Source of the DNA: a virus
Direction: 5' to 3' (one strand)
Length of the DNA: 46,407 nt
Virus record (IMG/VR): IMGVR_UViG_3300009409_001088
Coordinates: 1 to 46,407 of that record
Part shown: piece after piece, positions 12,527 to 23,483 of the stretch
Layout: each line of letters opens with the position of its first letter
How positions within the stretch are numbered: position 1 is the stretch's first letter
Made by a program: the position numbers and the translations under genes
Notes under the pieces: model-generated
Told to the model about the DNA's origin: nothing
Seen by the model: only the letters and a program-made list of their open reading frames with translations
Database searches by the model: none

Positions 12527-13477
12527 TTACTCATCATCATTCAACACATCAGCAAAGAACTTCTTCACATCATCATCATCGTCATCCGCTACCGCGGCTT
12601 TTGGCGCAACGGCTTGCGTGGTTTTTCCCACGGTTGTCGAGGCGCTCTTGGGTTGTACCGCCGGTTTAGAGACTGGGAGTTCGGCGTCTCGCTCGATGGA
12701 GTCTTCGGCGGTTCGGGGGGCGTTTCCGGTGTCACCGAAGAGGGTTCGGTTGAATCGCTTTTCAAGCTCGCTGTAGTCTTTGAACTGCGATTCGTGAGTG
12801 AACTCCGTGAGTGAGTGTTCCCCCTCCCACGTTGTTTCTTTCTTCGCATCGTCGCCATCAAAAAGTTCAATCGGCTCAGTGAACTCTGACTTGTCATAGT
12901 TCTGATATCCTGCAACTTTCTGAGATTTCAGTTTGAAATCGCATCCTTCCCACAGATCGAACGGGTTTGCCGGCTTCTGATCAGGAAACTGTGGTTCCAA
13001 AAGTTCCATGATCTTCGTGTGGATTCTCGGGCCGTACTTGAACAGAAACGCCGAGCCGTTATTCTCGGGGTGTGCGTCGTCTTCAATAACCAGAATGTTA
13101 CTGATGTAACTCTGCTTCCGCTTACGGTCACGGGCGATGCTCTTGTCGGACTCTACACCAGAGTTCCAGAGCTTGTTGTTACCCTTACACACAGGGCACG
13201 GCCGATCCGACAATGTCGTTGGGCAGTTCTCGATGAACCACGATCCCGATTCCGACTTGAATCCGTGAGCAAAGAGACGCGCCCATGGAATTTCTTCACC
13301 CTTTGGGGCAGGCAGAAAGCGAATCTTCGCGAATCCGATGCCCGTCTTGGCGTCTACCGACAGCTTCCAAAAGCGTTCGTCGGCACTACGTTTGGTGCTG
13401 GTTTTCTTGACTTCTTCGGCGAGCTTGGAGAGGAGATCCTTGCGGTTGTTGCGGAGGGTCGTAAAGTTTGTAGCCAT
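12527..13477 (-). CDS. 32: Single-stranded DNA-binding protein gp32
   Basis: 316 residues with the gp32 plan: a basic N-terminal region for cooperativity, a core with zinc ligands H71, C85, C94 and C97 (T4 uses one His and three Cys with similar spacing), and an acidic C-terminus rich in Asp (DDDDDDVKKFFADVL) used to bind replication partners. It coats ssDNA in replication, recombination and repair. gp59 and gp33 lie upstream, as in T4. AAGGAT precedes the ATG. A CTAAATA element lies 52 bases upstream and a strong terminator follows the gene, so gp32 can be transcribed as its own short unit. Confidence 0.95.
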   Translation of the reverse strand: MATNFTTLRNNRKDLLSKLAEEVKKTSTKRSADERFWKLSVDAKTGIGFAKIRFLPAPKGEEIPWARLFAHGFKSESGSWFIENCPTTLSDRPCPVCKGNNKLWNSGVESDKSIARDRKRKQSYISNILVIEDDAHPENNGSAFLFKYGPRIHTKIMELLEPQFPDQKPANPFDLWEGCDFKLKSQKVAGYQNYDKSEFTEPIELFDGDDAKKETTWEGEHSLTEFTHESQFKDYSELEKRFNRTLFGDTGNAPRTAEDSIERDAELPVSKPAVQPKSASTTVGKTTQAVAPKAAVADDDDDDVKKFFADVLNDDE

Positions 13478-13529
13478 AGTATCCTTTTCGTTATATTTTC
13501 TGTGTACGGTGTATGACGTATTGTATCAT

Positions 13530-13536
13530 TATTTAG
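13530..13536 (-). promoter_or_regulatory. CTAAATA late-promoter-like element before gp32
   Basis: CTAAATA on the minus strand, overlapping the end of gp59, with a 52-base leader to the gp32 ATG. Motif match only. Confidence 0.4.
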
Positions 13537-14232
13537 TTACGAGAACAACTGGTATTCTTCCTGCTCTGGCGTGAGTGACGATAGCCGATACGACGCCCAG
13601 AACGCATCGGCAAGTTTGTGTGTCATCTGCCGCCATGATGGGCGTACCAGATTGAGGAGTTGATCTGCTTTACGAAGGCGCGTCAGCCATGGCATCACAC
13701 CTAGTGACGATTTCTTCCCCTCGCGGCGCTCCCAATACACTGGCCAATTATATCCCTTGTCCGGTTGTGGAATCAAGAGCAGGAGACACGCAAGATCCAA
13801 CGGCAGGATTCGGCTCATCACTTCGCTGAGACTGGTTGGCATCACGGATCGCTGCCCGTCAATCATCGGTGCGTACAGCCATTCATCCAGCAACCGTGGT
13901 TTCAGGCGTTTCCGCACCTCATAGAGATCGTGTTTCAATACCGTAATCCCGTTCTCTGCGCGAGATGATAACGCAATGCCCGCATCTACCGCCTCGGGCG
14001 TGACAACATCAGTGATGTACGCAGTTGGCTTGAAGAAGTGTGTCATCAATAACGTGGCATGGATCTGCTCATCGTTGAGCTTGGTCGAGAGTCTGTAGTA
14101 GAACTGCCTGTCCCGCTGTTGAATGAGCGGGCCGGTTTTGATGTGCCCTCGGTATTTGATGAAGTCGTAGGTGTCGGTGCTGAAGTACATACGGTACGCC
14201 TTCGCCAACGTGAAGACATGTTCTGGCGACAT
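13537..14232 (-). CDS. 59: Helicase loader gp59
   Basis: 231 residues, near T4 gp59 (217). The N-terminal part YRMYFSTDTYDFIKYRG followed by RQFYYRLSTKLNDEQI matches the HMG-like domain of gp59, which loads gp41 helicase on gp32-coated forks. Its ATG overlaps the gp33 stop (TAATG), giving coupled translation. The order 33-59-32 is exactly that of T4. Confidence 0.85.
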   Translation of the reverse strand: MSPEHVFTLAKAYRMYFSTDTYDFIKYRGHIKTGPLIQQRDRQFYYRLSTKLNDEQIHATLLMTHFFKPTAYITDVVTPEAVDAGIALSSRAENGITVLKHDLYEVRKRLKPRLLDEWLYAPMIDGQRSVMPTSLSEVMSRILPLDLACLLLLIPQPDKGYNWPVYWERREGKKSSLGVMPWLTRLRKADQLLNLVRPSWRQMTHKLADAFWASYRLSSLTPEQEEYQLFS

Positions 14233-14456
14233 TAACCGGGCAATTCATTGTTTTTCGGAATCAGGTGGAGCCGTTGGGCATCTTGTGTCAGCCCATATTT
14301 GATTTTATCACCAATCAATGGCACGACGGCGTCTACGTCGAGTTGTCGCGACTCGCAGTAGTATATGATCGCGTCGATGTACGAGAGCCGTTTCTCAGCC
14401 ACAAGATTCTGAATGTGGAGGGTGAGTTGTTCGGACGTAAGATGTGTCACTGCCAT
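14232..14456 (-). CDS. 33: Late-transcription co-activator gp33
   Basis: A 74-residue acidic-basic helical protein with LSYIDAIIYYCESRQLDVD followed by LIGDKIKYGLTQDA, matching the RNA-polymerase-binding core of gp33 in T4-like phages. gp33 bridges polymerase and the sliding clamp to activate gp55-dependent late promoters. The frame extends four codons to a TTG (14468), but the ATG at 14456 is more likely. It starts immediately after the tmRNA 3' hairpin, so expression needs read-through or a separate promoter. Confidence 0.8.
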   Translation of the reverse strand: MAVTHLTSEQLTLHIQNLVAEKRLSYIDAIIYYCESRQLDVDAVVPLIGDKIKYGLTQDAQRLHLIPKNNELPG

Positions 14457-14466
14457 AATGATTCTC

Positions 14467-14502
14467 AAAAAGGTGCTGGTTTCTGTTGCCAGGAGAGCCA
14501 GC
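14467..14502 (-). terminator. 3' hairpin and T-run of the tmRNA gene
   Basis: GCTGG (14502-14498) can pair with CCAGC (14479-14475), or an inner CTGG/CCAG can form around CAACAGAAA, followed by ACC and five T. This would end the tmRNA transcript. The CTGGCAACAGAAACCAG segment may also be part of a tmRNA pseudoknot. Confidence 0.55.
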
Positions 14503-14878
14503 GTCCCCGCTACACTATTCCTAGTCTAGCAATTTGCGACCAACTAGGCCGCGAGTGCGAACTGGTTATCAGTTCTGTGTGTCTCTGTTTTACGACAGCG
14601 ACTTGTCGATAGCCTCCCCGCGTTCGCACAGTTCCCGTCGAATCTATTTCGCCCCCATCAAAAAAAGATTAGATAAACTACGCCGCTGAGGAGAAATATA
14701 TCCGCGCAAATGGACCATACCATATATGCTCTGAGCAGCCACTTGCTTACCTCTTGGGCTAGGGGGTTCTTCATTGTTAAGCCCCTGTAGTTCTTTTTTC
14801 ACGCTAATCTCCTTTTGGTGGAGGCGGCCGGTACTGCCCCGGCGTCCGAAAACCGTTGTCCGCGCTTCAACGACTACA
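14472..14878 (-). ncRNA. ssrA: Circularly permuted (two-piece) tmRNA
   Basis: tmRNA rescues stalled ribosomes and adds a degradation tag. Here the 3' (acceptor) half is encoded first: it runs from about 14878 to the encoded CCA ending at 14816, with a T-arm stem GCCGG/CCGGC and 3' strand CGCCTCC-A-CCA. After a 159-base intervening segment, the 5' half starts at 14656 with GGGGGCG and AAATAGATTCGACGGG, the tmRNA 5' signature. The two ends pair perfectly over 7 bp and include G3-U70, the alanine identity pair. The tag frame ends at TAG 14544-14546 and reads ...TDNQFALAA; the resume codon is uncertain, in the range 14570-14585. The T-loop is GGCAGTA instead of TTCRAnY. Permuted ssrA is known from Alphaproteobacteria, some Betaproteobacteria and Cyanobacteria. 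Confidence 0.93.
14658..14774 (-). CDS. Possible small membrane protein inside the tmRNA intervening segment
   Basis: A 38-codon ORF lies wholly between the two tmRNA halves; its TGA ends one base before the mature 5' GGGGGC. It begins MKNPLAQEVSKWLL and has one clear membrane helix (WSICADIFLLSGVVYLIFF). A strong ribosome site AAGGAG (14814-14809) lies six bases before a GTG (14800-14802) in the frame one base earlier, which starts MKKELQGLNNEEPP and stays open to a TAG at 14644. Joining the two frames at a C5 run (14762-14766), by a +1 slip on CCC-C or an indel, would give a 47-residue one-helix protein. Which form is made cannot be decided here. Confidence 0.45.
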   Translation of the reverse strand: MKNPLAQEVSKWLLRAYMVWSICADIFLLSGVVYLIFF

Positions 14879-14884
14879 GAAGTA

Positions 14885-14913
14885 ATTATATCACACGCGA
14901 CGACAAATGTCGA
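14885..14913 (-). promoter_or_regulatory. Sigma70-type promoter of the tmRNA gene
   Basis: TCGACA (14913-14908) and a perfect TATAAT (14890-14885) are separated by 17 bases; TG precedes the -10 (extended -10). The 13-mer TGTGATATAATTA is repeated exactly before the UDP-glucose dehydrogenase gene. Predicted start near 14878, at the 5' end of the acceptor piece. Confidence 0.8.
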
Positions 14914-14918
14914 GGCAC

Positions 14919-15089
14919 CTAGTGTCGGAATACCTCCTTATAAAGCGGCAAGTCTTTGGTACGTTGCTCGACAAGCTCTGCCAATGTGCCATGCGCGGCG
15001 TCCCGCTCAGAGAGAAGCGGAGACTCTACACCTTGCAGATCCGTTCGTTCGGCGTGCAGATGGGTGGTGTCGGGTTTCTCAGCTATCAA
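14919..15089 (-). CDS. Small hypothetical protein (56 residues), TTG start
   Basis: This frame starts at a TTG (15087-15089) six bases after the TAA of the nuclease gene and ends at a TAG just before the tmRNA -35 box. The product is charged and probably helical (TTHLHAERTDLQG, GTLAELVEQRTKDLPLYKEV). It fills the only gap between the nuclease and the tmRNA and has codon use like its neighbours. No family recognised. Confidence 0.5.
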   Translation of the reverse strand: MIAEKPDTTHLHAERTDLQGVESPLLSERDAAHGTLAELVEQRTKDLPLYKEVFRH

Positions 15090-15095
15090 TGGTAA

Positions 15096-15764
15096 TTACG
15101 CCACAGATACCGTGGCATGTGTGTAGAAGTAGTTAATCGCTTCGCGCAGTTGATCATAATAGTCCATTGGACGAATTGTAAACACTTGTAACCCCTCTGG
15201 AGACGCGACAGGAAGCACGACCTGTTTGCACTTCATTCCCGTGCGTTCATACAAGGCGAGTGCGTAGAACGCGCCCTGTACGCAGTAGGACTGAACATAC
15301 GCTTCCTTCTTCGGTTTGTTGGATTGCTTGAAGTCTACGATAGACAACACGCCGTCCACTTCCGCAATCAAGTCGGTACGTCCTGCCACCAAGAGTTTGT
15401 CGGAATAGAGATCAACTTCCTGCTCGTAGACGCCGGTAATGTTCGCGTCGAGCCATGGATGGAGGTGTCGCCAGAGTTCCATCACATGTGGCTCGACATC
15501 GTCGATGGGTAAATTGCCGAGATATTCCTCGGCGAGTGTGTGGAGTTTGAGGCCACGCCCTGATGCCGTTTTTGAAACCTGCGCGGCTACCTTTTTCCCG
15601 ACACGCTTCTGCCATGCTATGAGTTCCGGTTTCGGTTTCGCTCCGAGAACACGCGTGATAGAAGGATAGACCAGTTCAGTGCCTACAACAGAATACACAC
15701 GACCGGTGGTCGAGTTATGCTGTTTGAGCTTGGGGAGTCCGAGCGGCGTATGATGATGAAACAT
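15096..15764 (-). CDS. PD-(D/E)XK nuclease (RecB/MGME1-like)
   Basis: 222 residues. The catalytic core is AGRTDLIAEVDG with D131, then SIVDFKQSNK with D144 and K146, followed by YVQSYCVQGAFYALAL, the QxxxY-like helix of RecB-type nucleases. It probably trims or cuts ssDNA ends in replication or recombination, as MGME1-like nucleases do. Its ATG overlaps by one base the stop of the FmdB-type gene that precedes it on this strand. Confidence 0.8.
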   Translation of the reverse strand: MFHHHTPLGLPKLKQHNSTTGRVYSVVGTELVYPSITRVLGAKPKPELIAWQKRVGKKVAAQVSKTASGRGLKLHTLAEEYLGNLPIDDVEPHVMELWRHLHPWLDANITGVYEQEVDLYSDKLLVAGRTDLIAEVDGVLSIVDFKQSNKPKKEAYVQSYCVQGAFYALALYERTGMKCKQVVLPVASPEGLQVFTIRPMDYYDQLREAINYFYTHATVSVA

Positions 15765-16024
15765 TACTCTGGAATCTGTATGGTTGATCCGCGATTTCTT
15801 TTCTTGATGTCGCGGAGCATGTCCTTGAATGTCTCTGGTGTTTTCAGCCCACCTCGGTTGATGGTGTAGCTCACGCCTGGCGCGGCGATTACACGCTCAA
15901 GTGTGCCTTCCTTTTTACACGTCGGGCACGGTTGTGTGGTCGGATAGTCACGTTCGGCAATTAAAAATTGCACGTCCTCTATCCTAAAGTCACAAGCATT
16001 ACAGGCGTAGTCATAACGTGGCAC
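15764..16024 (-). CDS. FmdB-type zinc-ribbon protein (first copy)
   Basis: 86 residues starting MPRYDYACNACDF. C8, C11, C33 and C36 form a zinc ribbon, the pattern of the FmdB regulatory-protein family. The remainder is basic (ERVIAAPGVSYTINRGG and later RDIKKRNRG) and could bind nucleic acid. A second copy is at 18595-18789. Role in phages is not established; transcription regulation is a guess. Confidence 0.7.
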   Translation of the reverse strand: MPRYDYACNACDFRIEDVQFLIAERDYPTTQPCPTCKKEGTLERVIAAPGVSYTINRGGLKTPETFKDMLRDIKKRNRGSTIQIPE

Positions 16025-16035
16025 AAAAACACTCC

Positions 16036-16374
16036 TTAGTGGATATACGTATTTGAGGAATACAGCCTGGGATTTTCAAATCGTTCATCGGGCCCGACCG
16101 AGTTCGGTAGATATGTAAGCACGCCCAATGAGGCACGAACAACCTGTGCAATGTCATCGTAAAAGTTACTATGTTCGGGTGGAACTAAGCTCGCCCGCAT
16201 TTCACAAACGTTCGCCAGCACTAGCAGACAATCCATAGCAGACTCTTGTGATGTCTCATCCATCATTGCCTGTGCGAATTCCTGCATTGCTTCCACTTCT
16301 TCTTCTTTACTTTCGAATATCGATGACATTACCGTGTCTTTGCGGTATCGAATCTTAGGTGGCGTCGGATTCAT
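16036..16374 (-). CDS. Hypothetical acidic protein
   Basis: 112 residues, not recognised. It is acidic near the N-terminus (IFESKEEEVEAMQEFAQAMM) and mostly helical. GAAGGAG lies seven bases upstream of the ATG at 16374, which fixes the start. It overlaps the upstream membrane-protein gene by 20 bases. Confidence 0.6.
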   Translation of the reverse strand: MNPTPPKIRYRKDTVMSSIFESKEEEVEAMQEFAQAMMDETSQESAMDCLLVLANVCEMRASLVPPEHSNFYDDIAQVVRASLGVLTYLPNSVGPDERFENPRLYSSNTYIH

Positions 16375-17391: not shown

Positions 17392-17620
17392 TCTCCGATA
17401 ATAGGTGACAGACTTGTTTCAATAAACGCACGATATCGACAATTGGCTGATCACACGCCGTATTCCATCGACCCGTACTCTCATAGTATTGTATCATACT
17501 TTTCAAACGAGCGAGCGTTTCTTCTTCCAGCTTTTTATATACTTCTGCCGATGATAGGTTATCAACGACGGGTTGTACGTAATCACTCCGCGGCGTAAAA
17601 GGAATAACGTTTGCAGTCAT
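17270..17620 (-). CDS. Hypothetical protein overlapping its neighbour by 122 bp
   Basis: 116 residues beginning MTANVIPFTPRSDYVQP, with a helical core (KKLEEETLARLKSMIQYYE) and a polar C-terminus (TETHQDSGQGQEPPRE). The last ~40 codons lie in the same DNA as the start of the next gene in another frame. The ATG overlaps the stop of the GT4 gene as ATGA. Unrecognised. Confidence 0.55.
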   Translation of the reverse strand: MTANVIPFTPRSDYVQPVVDNLSSAEVYKKLEEETLARLKSMIQYYESTGRWNTACDQPIVDIVRLLKQVCHLLSENGTANHEDKAFTAPSESRGSVRTATETHQDSGQGQEPPRE

Positions 17621-18588
17621 TCAATAACCAACTTCTGTACTGGTGTGCCTTCGCTAATGACCGCCTTCAACAGATGCTTCCATGATTCCACACGTCCTTC
17701 AAACGAGTAGAACTGTTGATAGTAGATGCTCTGGAGCTTGAGGATGGTGTGAATGTGTTCATCATCATAGGTGTCTATCGCTCGACGCATACACCCCAGC
17801 GTACGGGTAATCATCACTTCGGGGCGTTCATCGAATTCGAACATCCAGGCCCATTCCGCCGCGGTTTCCGGCAGCGCACCAAAGTTTGTGGTGATTGCCA
17901 AGCAGCCCGACATGAGGGCTTCCTGAATCGCCATACATGAGGTTTCCGCGTAGATGGACGGATAGACAAACACATGTGAGTCCATTAGTGCGCCACGCAC
18001 GATGCTGTTCTCCTGTGTGCCGTGATAGACGACACACGGGTTCGCCTTCAAGGCGTCGAACACGGGCTTGAACTGCTCGTCTGCGTTTTCCCATCCGTAA
18101 ATCTTGAAGGACGAATAAACGTGAAGTTCCCAATCCTGGCGTTCCTTTGCGAGTGCAGCCGCGGCCGCCGTCAAGATTGCCAGGCCACGATGCGGGGTGG
18201 ACGTATACATAAACCGCAGTTTTCCATCCTGCTTTGGTTTGGGAAGCACGGCCGCCCGATGCGGCACACCATTTTTGATGACGAGGCCTTCGCTATACGG
18301 AATACCGAGATACTGATTATACTGCTGTTGCTGCCAATGAGAGACAAACACAATGCGATTGAACTGTGTACGATACGTCGGGTCACGCAAGACAGCACTG
18401 GCGGGATCTTGCGGCAAATCTTGAAGAATAAGAACACGCGGCTTATCTTCAAAGGTGTAATTCTCTGGGCGAGACATCATAATTTGAACTTGGTCAGTCA
18501 GTTCTGGCAGCGCCTTCCGAATATTCGCTTCCAGTAATTCTGTGCCGCCCATGGGCTTTGCGTTGGGGTCGAACGCGTCGTCACTCAT
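17617..18588 (-). CDS. Glycosyltransferase family 4-like
   Basis: 323 residues with the GT-B C-terminal domain: RFMYTSTPHRGLAIL, then ELHVYSSFKIYGW, HGTQENSIVRGALMDSHVF, and the nucleotide-sugar motif FVYPSIYAETSCMAIQEAL with E as the catalytic-loop acid. The N-terminal Rossmann half is shorter than usual (typical GT4 proteins have about 370 residues), including PMGGTELLEANIRKA. AAGGA precedes the ATG. Donor unknown; the UDP-sugar genes close by suggest UDP-xylose or UDP-glucuronate, which is inference. Confidence 0.8.
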   Translation of the reverse strand: MSDDAFDPNAKPMGGTELLEANIRKALPELTDQVQIMMSRPENYTFEDKPRVLILQDLPQDPASAVLRDPTYRTQFNRIVFVSHWQQQQYNQYLGIPYSEGLVIKNGVPHRAAVLPKPKQDGKLRFMYTSTPHRGLAILTAAAAALAKERQDWELHVYSSFKIYGWENADEQFKPVFDALKANPCVVYHGTQENSIVRGALMDSHVFVYPSIYAETSCMAIQEALMSGCLAITTNFGALPETAAEWAWMFEFDERPEVMITRTLGCMRRAIDTYDDEHIHTILKLQSIYYQQFYSFEGRVESWKHLLKAVISEGTPVQKLVIE

Positions 18589-18594
18589 TGAGTA

Positions 18595-18789
18595 TCATCC
18601 TTTTTTAGAGTATCGGTTTTGGGCGTTGTAGCCTTTGATAATGAAACTGCTGACGCTGCTGAGTCTTTCAATCGTCTCACCCGCGCCGCCGCATTCAGGA
18701 CACGCAACTTCTCCAAGATTTCGGTAGGAGTGAACATACTGTTGGAAATGTTTTTCGCAGTCATGGCAAATCAATTCATAGAGTGGCAT
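18595..18789 (-). CDS. FmdB-type zinc-ribbon protein (second copy)
   Basis: 64 residues starting MPLYELICHDCEKHF. C8, C11, C30 and C33 form the zinc ribbon, with ECGGAGETIERL after it. Paralogue of 15764-16024. The start overlaps the end of the dehydrogenase gene by 14 bases. Confidence 0.7.
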   Translation of the reverse strand: MPLYELICHDCEKHFQQYVHSYRNLGEVACPECGGAGETIERLSSVSSFIIKGYNAQNRYSKKG

Positions 18790-19663
18790 GTTTTGGTTTT
18801 GGAACCACCGCTTCGACTATGTCTTTCGTATCAAGAATACCTCGTCGAATAGACCAGTTATAATCGACGGCCGCCTTTAATGTTGCGAAGTCGTATCTCA
18901 TGAGATCGCAGGCATGGAGCAACGCCGCGGTATCTTTGGGGAAACAGAAGCCGCCCCAGCCACGCTGTTGTGTGACGGTCGTGTGGTTAGCACCAATATC
19001 GTCACGCATGATGAGCAGCGACCGGACAACGTCGAAGTCCAATCCCTGCCGTTGACACAGATCGAAGATGTGATTGAAGAAGCTCACCTTCACTGCCAGA
19101 AAACCGTTCGACGCATACTTCATCATGATGGCTTCCTTGACCGCGCACTGGTGGATGTGAGCTTTGGGTAGCACCGTGTTGAAGTACTTCGTCCATGTGG
19201 CGTCAGGCGTATCATCACCAAGCACCACAAAATCCTGTGCGGCAAAGTCTGCGGCCGCGTCGGCCGCCTTTAGGAATTCGGGGGAGTATGTTATCTTCAT
19301 GTGTGGACGCTGCGCCTTGATCGTGTCCCAAGATCCAAACGTGAGCGTACTCTTGATAAGCACCGGCACGTCAGGGTACTGGTGTGCAACACGCTTAAGT
19401 ACGTCTAGAACGTTGTCGATATTACAACTACCATCGGGTGCCTGCGGTGTGGAGACACAGACGATGATACCATCGACCTCAACGAATCGCTTCGAACTGA
19501 CAACGCGACCGCCAAGCACCGTATCCGTTTGCGTCGTGCTGTGAAGAAGGTCCCACGAACCACGTTCGGGAAATTGGGGATCGATAATGTAATGGGGAAG
19601 GCGCTTCGACGCGGTGTTGTAAAGGGCAGAACCAACATAACCAAATCCAGCAATAACGTACAT
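18776..19663 (-). CDS. UDP-glucose 6-dehydrogenase-like
   Basis: Oxidises UDP-glucose to UDP-glucuronate with NAD. The Rossmann motif is AGFGYVGSAL (5-14); CVSTP (69-73) and IKSTL (103-107) follow; K182 and N186 in KYASNGF and the catalytic Cys C240 in GWGGFCFPKDTAAL are all kept. At 295 residues it is about 90 shorter than bacterial enzymes and lacks most of the C-terminal UDP-binding domain, so it may be a compact form or need checking. An extended -10 promoter lies 48 bases upstream. With the decarboxylase at 21462-22436 it gives a route to UDP-xylose. Confidence 0.85.
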   Translation of the reverse strand: MYVIAGFGYVGSALYNTASKRLPHYIIDPQFPERGSWDLLHSTTQTDTVLGGRVVSSKRFVEVDGIIVCVSTPQAPDGSCNIDNVLDVLKRVAHQYPDVPVLIKSTLTFGSWDTIKAQRPHMKITYSPEFLKAADAAADFAAQDFVVLGDDTPDATWTKYFNTVLPKAHIHQCAVKEAIMMKYASNGFLAVKVSFFNHIFDLCQRQGLDFDVVRSLLIMRDDIGANHTTVTQQRGWGGFCFPKDTAALLHACDLMRYDFATLKAAVDYNWSIRRGILDTKDIVEAVVPKPKHATL

Positions 19664-23398: not shown

Positions 23399-23483
23399 TG
23401 GCGGAGAGTGCCGGAATCGAACCGACTACCCGATCACCGAGCGACAGTTTTCAAGACTGCTTGCCACCGTTGGCCTACTCTCC
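23399..23483 (-). tRNA. tRNA-Ser (anticodon UGA), CCA encoded
   Basis: GGAGAGT (5') pairs fully with ACTCTCC; discriminator G and CCA follow. The anticodon arm is GCAGT-CTTGAAA-ACTGT with anticodon TGA. A long variable arm (CTCG-GTGAT-CGGG), as expected for serine, precedes the T-arm GTCGG-TTCGATT-CCGGC. The first bases overlap the stop codon of the upstream GNAT-like gene. It reads UCA and wobble UCG codons. It is the only tRNA I find here. Confidence 0.93.

Follow-up and report, generated by a model that had tools for sequence, protein, structure and literature searches.

A conserved small protein gene in the intervening segment of a circularly permuted phage tmRNA gene

The stretch of viral DNA analyzed here (IMG/VR record IMGVR_UViG_3300009409_001088, positions 1 to 46,407; 46,407 nucleotides, hereafter the window) carries on its minus strand a complete circularly permuted (two-piece) tmRNA gene at 14917-14472. 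The 159-nt intervening segment (IVS) that separates the two tmRNA pieces, a region normally regarded as waste, was found to hold a 38-codon gene for a one-helix, probably membrane protein, which is conserved and under purifying selection. The IVS has a history different from that of the tmRNA body around it and behaves as an exchangeable gene slot. Translation and function of the small protein are inferred. No report of a protein gene in a tmRNA IVS, of its selection, of the second family described below or of exchange between tmRNAs was found in full-text literature searches, which mostly did not extend to subscription papers and preprints.

To establish the identity of the RNA gene, the region was searched with covariance models. 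Matches above the gathering score were obtained in permuted order with RF04321 (93.0 bits, E 8.2e-17; gathering score 47) and RF01849 (81.5 bits, E 1.2e-20; gathering score 50), values not attributable to chance, and these are the matches listed when lax thresholds are applied. The gene was not reported by ARAGORN. The elements of the locus are as follows.

15096-15764, minus strand: exonuclease, upstream (phrog_298, E 4.7e-53)
14885-14913, minus strand: sigma70-type promoter-like site TCGACA-N17-TATAAT with extended -10 (TGa); 11 of 12 consensus matches, a consensus match only, with 3 sites found in 13400-16100 against 2.5 ± 1.5 in shuffles
14816-14878, minus strand: acceptor (3' tRNA-like) piece, ending CGCCTCC-A-CCA; the RF04321 match runs from 14878
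14657-14815, minus strand: IVS, 159 nt, carrying the nested small gene
14809-14815, minus strand: first Shine-Dalgarno sequence (SD1, AAAGGAG), also the 5' arm of the IVS-closing helix
14644-14802, minus strand: leader ORF (GTG start, 52 aa in the window), overlapping the small ORF and reading into the mRNA piece
14782-14786, minus strand: second Shine-Dalgarno sequence (SD2, AGGGG), 7 nt before the ATG of the small ORF
14658-14774, minus strand: nested small ORF, 38 aa, one predicted helix (MKNPLAQEVSKWLLRAYMVWSICADIFLLSGVVYLIFF), stop TGA
14661-14671, minus strand: 3' arm of the IVS-closing helix, also the last codons of the small ORF
14472-14656, minus strand: mRNA-like piece, starting GGGGGCGAAATAGATTCGACGGG; the RF01849 match runs to 14472
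14544-14570, minus strand: tag reading frame, inferred DNQFALAA-stop (the resume codon GAT is inferred)
14232-14456, minus strand: gp33-like late-transcription coactivator, directly downstream (phrog_254, E 9.7e-13, searched as 14468-14232; ATG at 14456), followed by gp59 and gp32

The observation made in an earlier note, namely a promoter, an acceptor piece, a 159-base intervening segment and a piece with a frame ending ALAA-stop whose ends pair over 7 bp with a G3-U70 wobble, is confirmed in every element. The absence of a covariance-model match in permuted order, or of conserved pairing in related phages, had been named beforehand as grounds for rejection; neither was observed. The arms CGCCTCC and GGGGGCG pair over 7 bp with the G3-U70 wobble, and among 69 nested haplotypes the arms were CGCCTCC/GGGGGCG in 64, the compensated CACCTCC/GGGGGTG in 3 and others in 2. 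The same arrangement stands on six other IMG/VR contigs with six different sample numbers (L162-L167; L numbers denote the individual sequence stretches compared), so that an assembly artefact is unlikely. The tag ends in LAA-stop in 70 of 73 nested-ORF tmRNAs, the other 3 stretches containing only 71-124 nt of the piece. In the window and in L018, L011 and L007, this tmRNA clade seems to have a short tag (DNQFALAA or alike) with a resume codon other than the usual alanine codon. Elsewhere in the window, a tRNA-Ser (tga) gene overlapping listed ORFs lies at 23399-23483 (minus strand), and glycosyltransferase and UDP-glucose dehydrogenase-like genes lie at 17617-19663 (minus strand), not far from the replication genes.

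The interpretation given in that note was only partly supported. A phage-borne permuted tmRNA between core genes of a T4-like genome is borne out, but the implied absence of earlier descriptions in T4-like phages is wrong, given that a two-piece tmRNA was reported in 2022 in T4-like phage Melnitz, also shortly before gp33 (PMC9004378). The same paper states that, of 133 unique phage tmRNA structures, 53 were called two-piece by ARAGORN. The coding capacity of the intervening segment was missed.

Close relatives of this tmRNA (L011, L013, L018 and copies) have an IVS of 10 nt, and L007 has one of 11 nt, in comparison with 159 nt in the window. The extra sequence holds an ATG frame of 38 codons predicted as one long helix (AlphaFold2 on the single sequence, residues 4-37, pLDDT 93) with a core WSICAD. 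Its TGA stop is followed by one T and then by GGGGGCG of the mRNA piece. A search of IMG/VR with an alignment of the protein alone gave 265 stretches encoding a relative; of the best 80, 76 run into the mRNA piece of a permuted tmRNA and 4 are free-standing. A second search from a diverged 44-aa member gave 246 stretches, overlapping the first. Over the loci scanned there are 83 distinct haplotypes, 73 with the mRNA piece within 60 nt of the stop and 10 free-standing, the borders having been located by a text pattern rather than by a covariance model. Nine of the ten free-standing loci also hold a permuted tmRNA, which begins 13-450 nt after the ORF in eight and about 2.3 kb after it in L254, although L050, L092, L135 and L139 came from a tmRNA pattern search and are not independent of it.

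Relatives were not found outside this material. A blastn search of phage records with the region returned no match, and tblastn of 50,697 phage records with one 48-aa query from L068 returned none at E ≤ 1. A scan of 84,980 bacterial and archaeal genomes with one short peptide pattern matched 8 stretches, none of which encoded a relative, although diverged copies could be missed by such a pattern. Nothing significant was obtained for nested proteins in PHROGs (best E 0.42, window protein) or Pfam (best E 0.014, a relative, below its cut-off).

To assess whether the ORF is coding, selection was examined in 46 unique IVSs of exactly 159 nt, out of 69 haplotypes with both borders read. Four IVSs of 236-294 nt (L183, L200, L205 and L288) were left out. 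In the region after the usual end of the leader, pN/pS was 0.208 in the ORF frame, against 0.796 and 2.738 in the other two; thinned to 20 sequences differing by more than 10%, the values were 0.209, 0.83 and 2.78. Codon entropy was 0.44/0.12/0.78 by position. The start is ATG in 46 of 46, with AAAGGAG at the IVS start and an AGGGG-like motif before the ATG. The leader ORF, which begins with GTG, ATG or TTG at IVS nt 14 after AAAGGAG, has no conserved protein (pN/pS 0.98 where it does not overlap), and a conserved leader peptide was rejected on this basis. By contrast, its frame is open in 46 of 46, with no stop in nt 17-41, against 42 and 27 of 46 sequences with a stop there in the other frames. 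In the window the usual leader stop (AAGTAA) reads AAGCAA, so the leader runs on to 14644. Some free-standing copies (L050, L092 and L135) also show an SD and a start before an overlapping frame, so the leader seems to belong to the small gene and not to the tmRNA.

The IVS is also a structural element. In 80 phage IVSs of 34 nt or more, the two ends pair over a mean of 9.9 bp, with at least 7 bp in 72, whereas permuting the 3' ends among sequences gave a mean of 4.6 (maximum 5.05 in 300 trials); in 63 bacterial IVSs the values were 5.5 against 3.4. In the window family the 5' arm is SD1 and the 3' arm the last codons, and the 11 pairs of IVS nt 1-11 with nt 145-155 are formed in 44-46 of 46 IVSs. 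Third codon positions there are held as pairing requires, with C in 46 of 46 at nt 149 (Val/Ile codon), A in 45 of 46 at nt 146 and T in 44 of 46 at nt 155, but T in 28 and C in 18 at nt 152, which faces G. RNAalifold found no double-sided change in this helix against its commonest pairs within the 46 IVSs, and the helix claim therefore rests on the wider phage set. A hairpin masking SD2 can form and looked convincing by eye, but showed no covariation (permuted sets scored as high in 33% of 1000 trials) and was dropped as evidence. The stop is TGA in 76 of 76 nested loci among the best 80 and in 72 of 73 nested haplotypes, the other (L288, which has an unusual border) being TAG, against TAA in 7 and TAG in 3 of the 10 free-standing copies. 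TGAT ends 78 of 105 phage IVSs and 39 of 114 bacterial ones, so the gene appears to have taken its stop from the border of the mRNA piece and its SD from the helix.

Additional analyses were performed to determine whether other phage IVSs hold genes. Here, 105 unique phage-contig IVSs and 114 unique bacterial IVSs were taken by a tRNA-domain pattern; both sets are the first rows of longer scans, duplicates were merged, 3 viral and 2 bacterial loci without a readable border were dropped, and related IVSs were counted apart. Of the phage IVSs, 74 are 60 nt or longer, and 20 of these hold an SD-led ORF of 28 aa or more, against 5.4 ± 2.1 in dinucleotide shuffles (maximum 11 of 100); at 20 aa or more there are 27, against 10.0 ± 3.1 (maximum 21). 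Of the bacterial IVSs, 13 are that long and none holds one, but given that shuffles give 1.2-1.7 this zero alone proves little, and the clear difference is length (4-116 nt in bacteria, up to 266 nt in phages). In 289 alphaproteobacterial genomes, the matches include at least two spans of 300 nt or more; read by eye, they look like inverted-repeat sequence without an SD-led ORF, which gives no support to host IVSs as a source. Long host IVSs that look by eye like inverted-repeat elements rather than ORFs were noted in L434 and L435, two genomes of the alphaproteobacterial class sample.

The phage ORFs fall into several unlike sequences. A second, unrelated family (MFKWL...KADAKIPKYLSG) has a member, SD-led and unannotated, in the Melnitz record (L025, MZ577097.1; IVS inside the match 1514-1846). 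On searching, 18 of 18 relatives lie in an IVS, with pN/pS 0.29 against 0.97 and 1.24. In 13 of these 18 the frame has no stop inside the IVS and reads 42 nt into the mRNA piece, and in 5 it stops inside. Nested ORFs without a stop inside the IVS, ending 13 or 42 nt inside the mRNA piece, were seen in L064, L136, L099, L047, L119, L151 and L160 (13 nt in the first four), so the freed IVS would be a stopless mRNA. Two IVSs of the window family (L183 and L205; 256 and 260 nt) hold two genes in a row, an SD-led 34-35 aa ORF of another sequence with NYRRKCNAxYxDLCM at its end and then the small gene. IVSs of 247-266 nt in L066, L067 and L108 hold SD-led ORFs of 73-77 aa, two of them with hydrophobic stretches, with no Pfam family above cut-off. 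The phage contigs L010 and L021 carry a one-piece tmRNA (RF00023) next to tRNAs that share the GGGGCGAAATAGATTCGACG core.

Evidence that the IVS has moved was obtained by comparison with tmRNA bodies. On a tree of 111 bodies without IVS, 25 bacterial rows form one clade and the window sits with the short-IVS phages (100/100), far from the other nested-ORF tmRNAs; bootstrap values were unsettled, some branches are long (L007 among them), and the nested-ORF label needs at least 6 changes on this tree. The window and L011 bodies are 89% identical. By contrast, the bodies of L168, L171 and L170 are 49-53% identical to that of the window, yet their IVSs are identical to it at 139, 137 and 134 of 159 positions (84-87%). 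Given that IVS and body identity are only weakly correlated in other pairs too (r 0.18), part of this contrast reflects a slowly changing IVS, and sites under least constraint were therefore examined. The silent-site difference of the window ORF is 0.29 to L171, 0.40 to L168 and 0.49 to L170, with a median of 0.68 to all; the first two values are below the medians of L171 and L168 to the rest (0.50 and 0.52, respectively). The fast-changing leader-only stretch is identical at 21, 19 and 18 of 25 positions to L168, L171 and L170, against a mean of 10.1 to the others. The only blastn match (E ≤ 1e-3) between ±1.5 kb of the window IVS and each of the three is one of 188-191 nt, the IVS with its two arms, whereas the flanks match L018 at 92% and 87%, stopping at the last base before the IVS and resuming at the first base after it. 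The neighboring exonuclease and gp33 of the window and L168 are 38% and 33% identical as proteins. The simplest reading is that the IVS was exchanged as a unit at the arms; loss in the sisters alone would not explain the similarity to L168.

A gp33 homologue was found in 73 and a phrog_4973 homologue in 53 of the 83 haplotype loci, in the stretches examined. Twenty neighbors gave gp33, phrog_4973, other unknown families, a 2OG-Fe(II) oxygenase and, in L092, an endolysin, and about half had no family. The small gene thus belongs mostly to one region of T4-like phages. Given this, and that 10 of 83 haplotypes are free-standing and that L011, L013, L018 and L007 lack the ORF in the stretches examined, the nested gene may be only loosely tied to the tmRNA, and linkage may be common inheritance of one region rather than function.

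Taken as a whole, the data are best explained by an alphaproteobacterial-style permuted phage tmRNA gene whose IVS is a second gene, a reading to which we assign a probability of roughly 0.8. The sequence itself establishes the two tmRNA pieces, the acceptor stem and the tag, the leader ORF overlapping a selected 38-aa ORF for a single-helix, probably membrane-spanning protein, the closing helix of which SD1 is one strand and the last codons the other, the coincidence of the UGA stop with the UGAU that ends 78 of 105 phage IVSs, and an IVS history that breaks from that of the body exactly at the CCA and GGGGGCG borders. It is by inference only that one promoter probably makes one transcript, that RNase P and the tRNA 3'-end enzymes cut out the IVS to give two-piece tmRNA, that this is charged with alanine, works with SmpB and recycles ribosomes during infection, and that the same transcript, before cutting or as the freed IVS, is translated into the small protein, the last being inferred from selection and the SDs. 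Production of permuted tmRNA as one precursor split in two is stated in PMC9004378 and PMC11915505, although not for a coding IVS. That the nested ORF is a selected protein gene is very likely, and its translation during infection and the role of the IVS as an exchangeable slot are likely, although SD1 is paired in the folded precursor, which would reduce translation. In this view the peptide most likely acts at the host membrane (host takeover, superinfection exclusion or lysis timing), a role we consider about as likely as not. A ribosome finishing the ORF would sit over the closing helix and the RNase P site, so peptide synthesis and tmRNA maturation should compete, but this is tentative and rather less likely than not.

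Such an arrangement matters because permuted tmRNA genes are read as one RNA cut in two with a waste spacer between, whereas here 76 of the best 80 of 265 relatives lie in that spacer as a selected protein gene, a second unlike family uses it too, and one spacer can be seen to have changed tmRNAs. It reveals a hidden site of protein genes in viruses, offers a reason for phages to keep a permuted rather than a one-piece tmRNA, and makes the question of what phage tmRNAs are for testable in a cultured phage. A further reading, which is unlikely on present evidence, is that the IVS is a mobile-cassette slot in which short genes, sometimes two in a row, move between unrelated tmRNAs by recombination at the near-invariant acceptor arms, with stop codon and SD built from the processing helix, and in which cleavage turns the message into an almost stopless or stopless mRNA that the same tmRNA then rescues; each transcript would then be an effector gene, its own off-switch and a ribosome-rescue RNA.

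Among alternative explanations, two survive about equally, although both are doubtful. The first is a type I toxin-like unit of the hok/mok pattern merely housed by the tmRNA gene, in which translation of a small hydrophobic peptide depends on an overlapping leader and is held off by pairing of the two RNA ends. The overlapping leader ORF, kept open without amino acid conservation, the pairing of SD1 to the 3' end of the RNA and the SD and start before an overlapping frame in three free-standing copies are consistent with this. However, the SD2 hairpin lacks covariation, and there is no evident need of an addiction module in a lytic T4-like phage; toxicity and an antisense RNA antitoxin would be inferred by analogy alone, and for the latter the analysis covered only the promoter consensus scan, which listed no plus-strand promoter-like site in 13400-16100. 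The second is a lysis-control peptide (holin, antiholin or pinholin partner). In L092 (5274-6425), L050 and L135 the free-standing ORF lies 0.5-0.8 kb before an endolysin-like gene with a tmRNA between, and L294 and L256 also have an endolysin match within 0.8 kb. By contrast, an endolysin match is present in only 12 of 83 loci, several of them kilobases away, whereas gp33 is found in 73.

It is less likely that the excised IVS is a built-in substrate of the tmRNA made from the same transcript, its product being tagged and destroyed in a self-limiting loop. The stop 1 nt before the border in the window family, and the frames that read 42 or 13 nt into the mRNA piece, would fit such a loop, but a gene filling a short slot must end near its edge anyway, so the stop position could be mere geometry, and in 5 of 18 Melnitz-type loci the stop lies inside the IVS. 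Finally, an ordinary two-piece tmRNA with a long, meaningless IVS and a chance ORF, although two-piece tmRNAs occur in Melnitz and other phages, bacterial IVSs vary in length and the database paper mentions an IVS with a tRNA gene and one with a repeat, is very unlikely and, for the ORF, is contradicted by the frame-specific selection, the 265 stretches with a relative and the second family with the same behavior.

Of known systems, the two-piece tmRNA of Methylophilales phage Melnitz (PMC9004378) is likewise an alphaproteobacterial-type permuted tmRNA in a T4-like phage, and in its record the order is PDDEXK nuclease, two small genes, ssrA, a small reverse-strand gene, gp33 (coactivator) and gp59 (helicase loader). 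Its IVS also holds an SD-led ORF, which is neither annotated in the record nor mentioned in the passages of the paper examined. It differs in its diverged RNA body, in an IVS protein of an unlike sequence family and in the glutamine riboswitch that follows it, none being reported in the window. The permuted tmRNAs of Alphaproteobacteria (RF01849 and RF04321, the latter made in a 2025 work from known permuted tmRNAs; PMC11915505) share the permuted order, the acceptor stem with G3-U70, the tag frame and the 3' end region, but their IVSs are short, none of the 13 of 60 nt or more (a small sample) holds an SD-led ORF of 20 aa, and the 25 sampled bodies form a clade apart from the phage ones. The hok/mok-type type I toxin genes share the overlapping leader ORF, the small hydrophobic protein and the pairing of the RNA ends, but the present gene is located in a tmRNA and has no known antisense RNA. 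Homing-endonuclease genes inside group I introns of tmRNA genes (PMC11915505) also place a protein gene in a part of a tmRNA gene that is removed from the product; here, by contrast, no Rfam intron family was matched and the T-arm is uninterrupted in the match, the housing segment is the IVS of a permuted gene, and the protein is one of 38 aa without a Pfam match.
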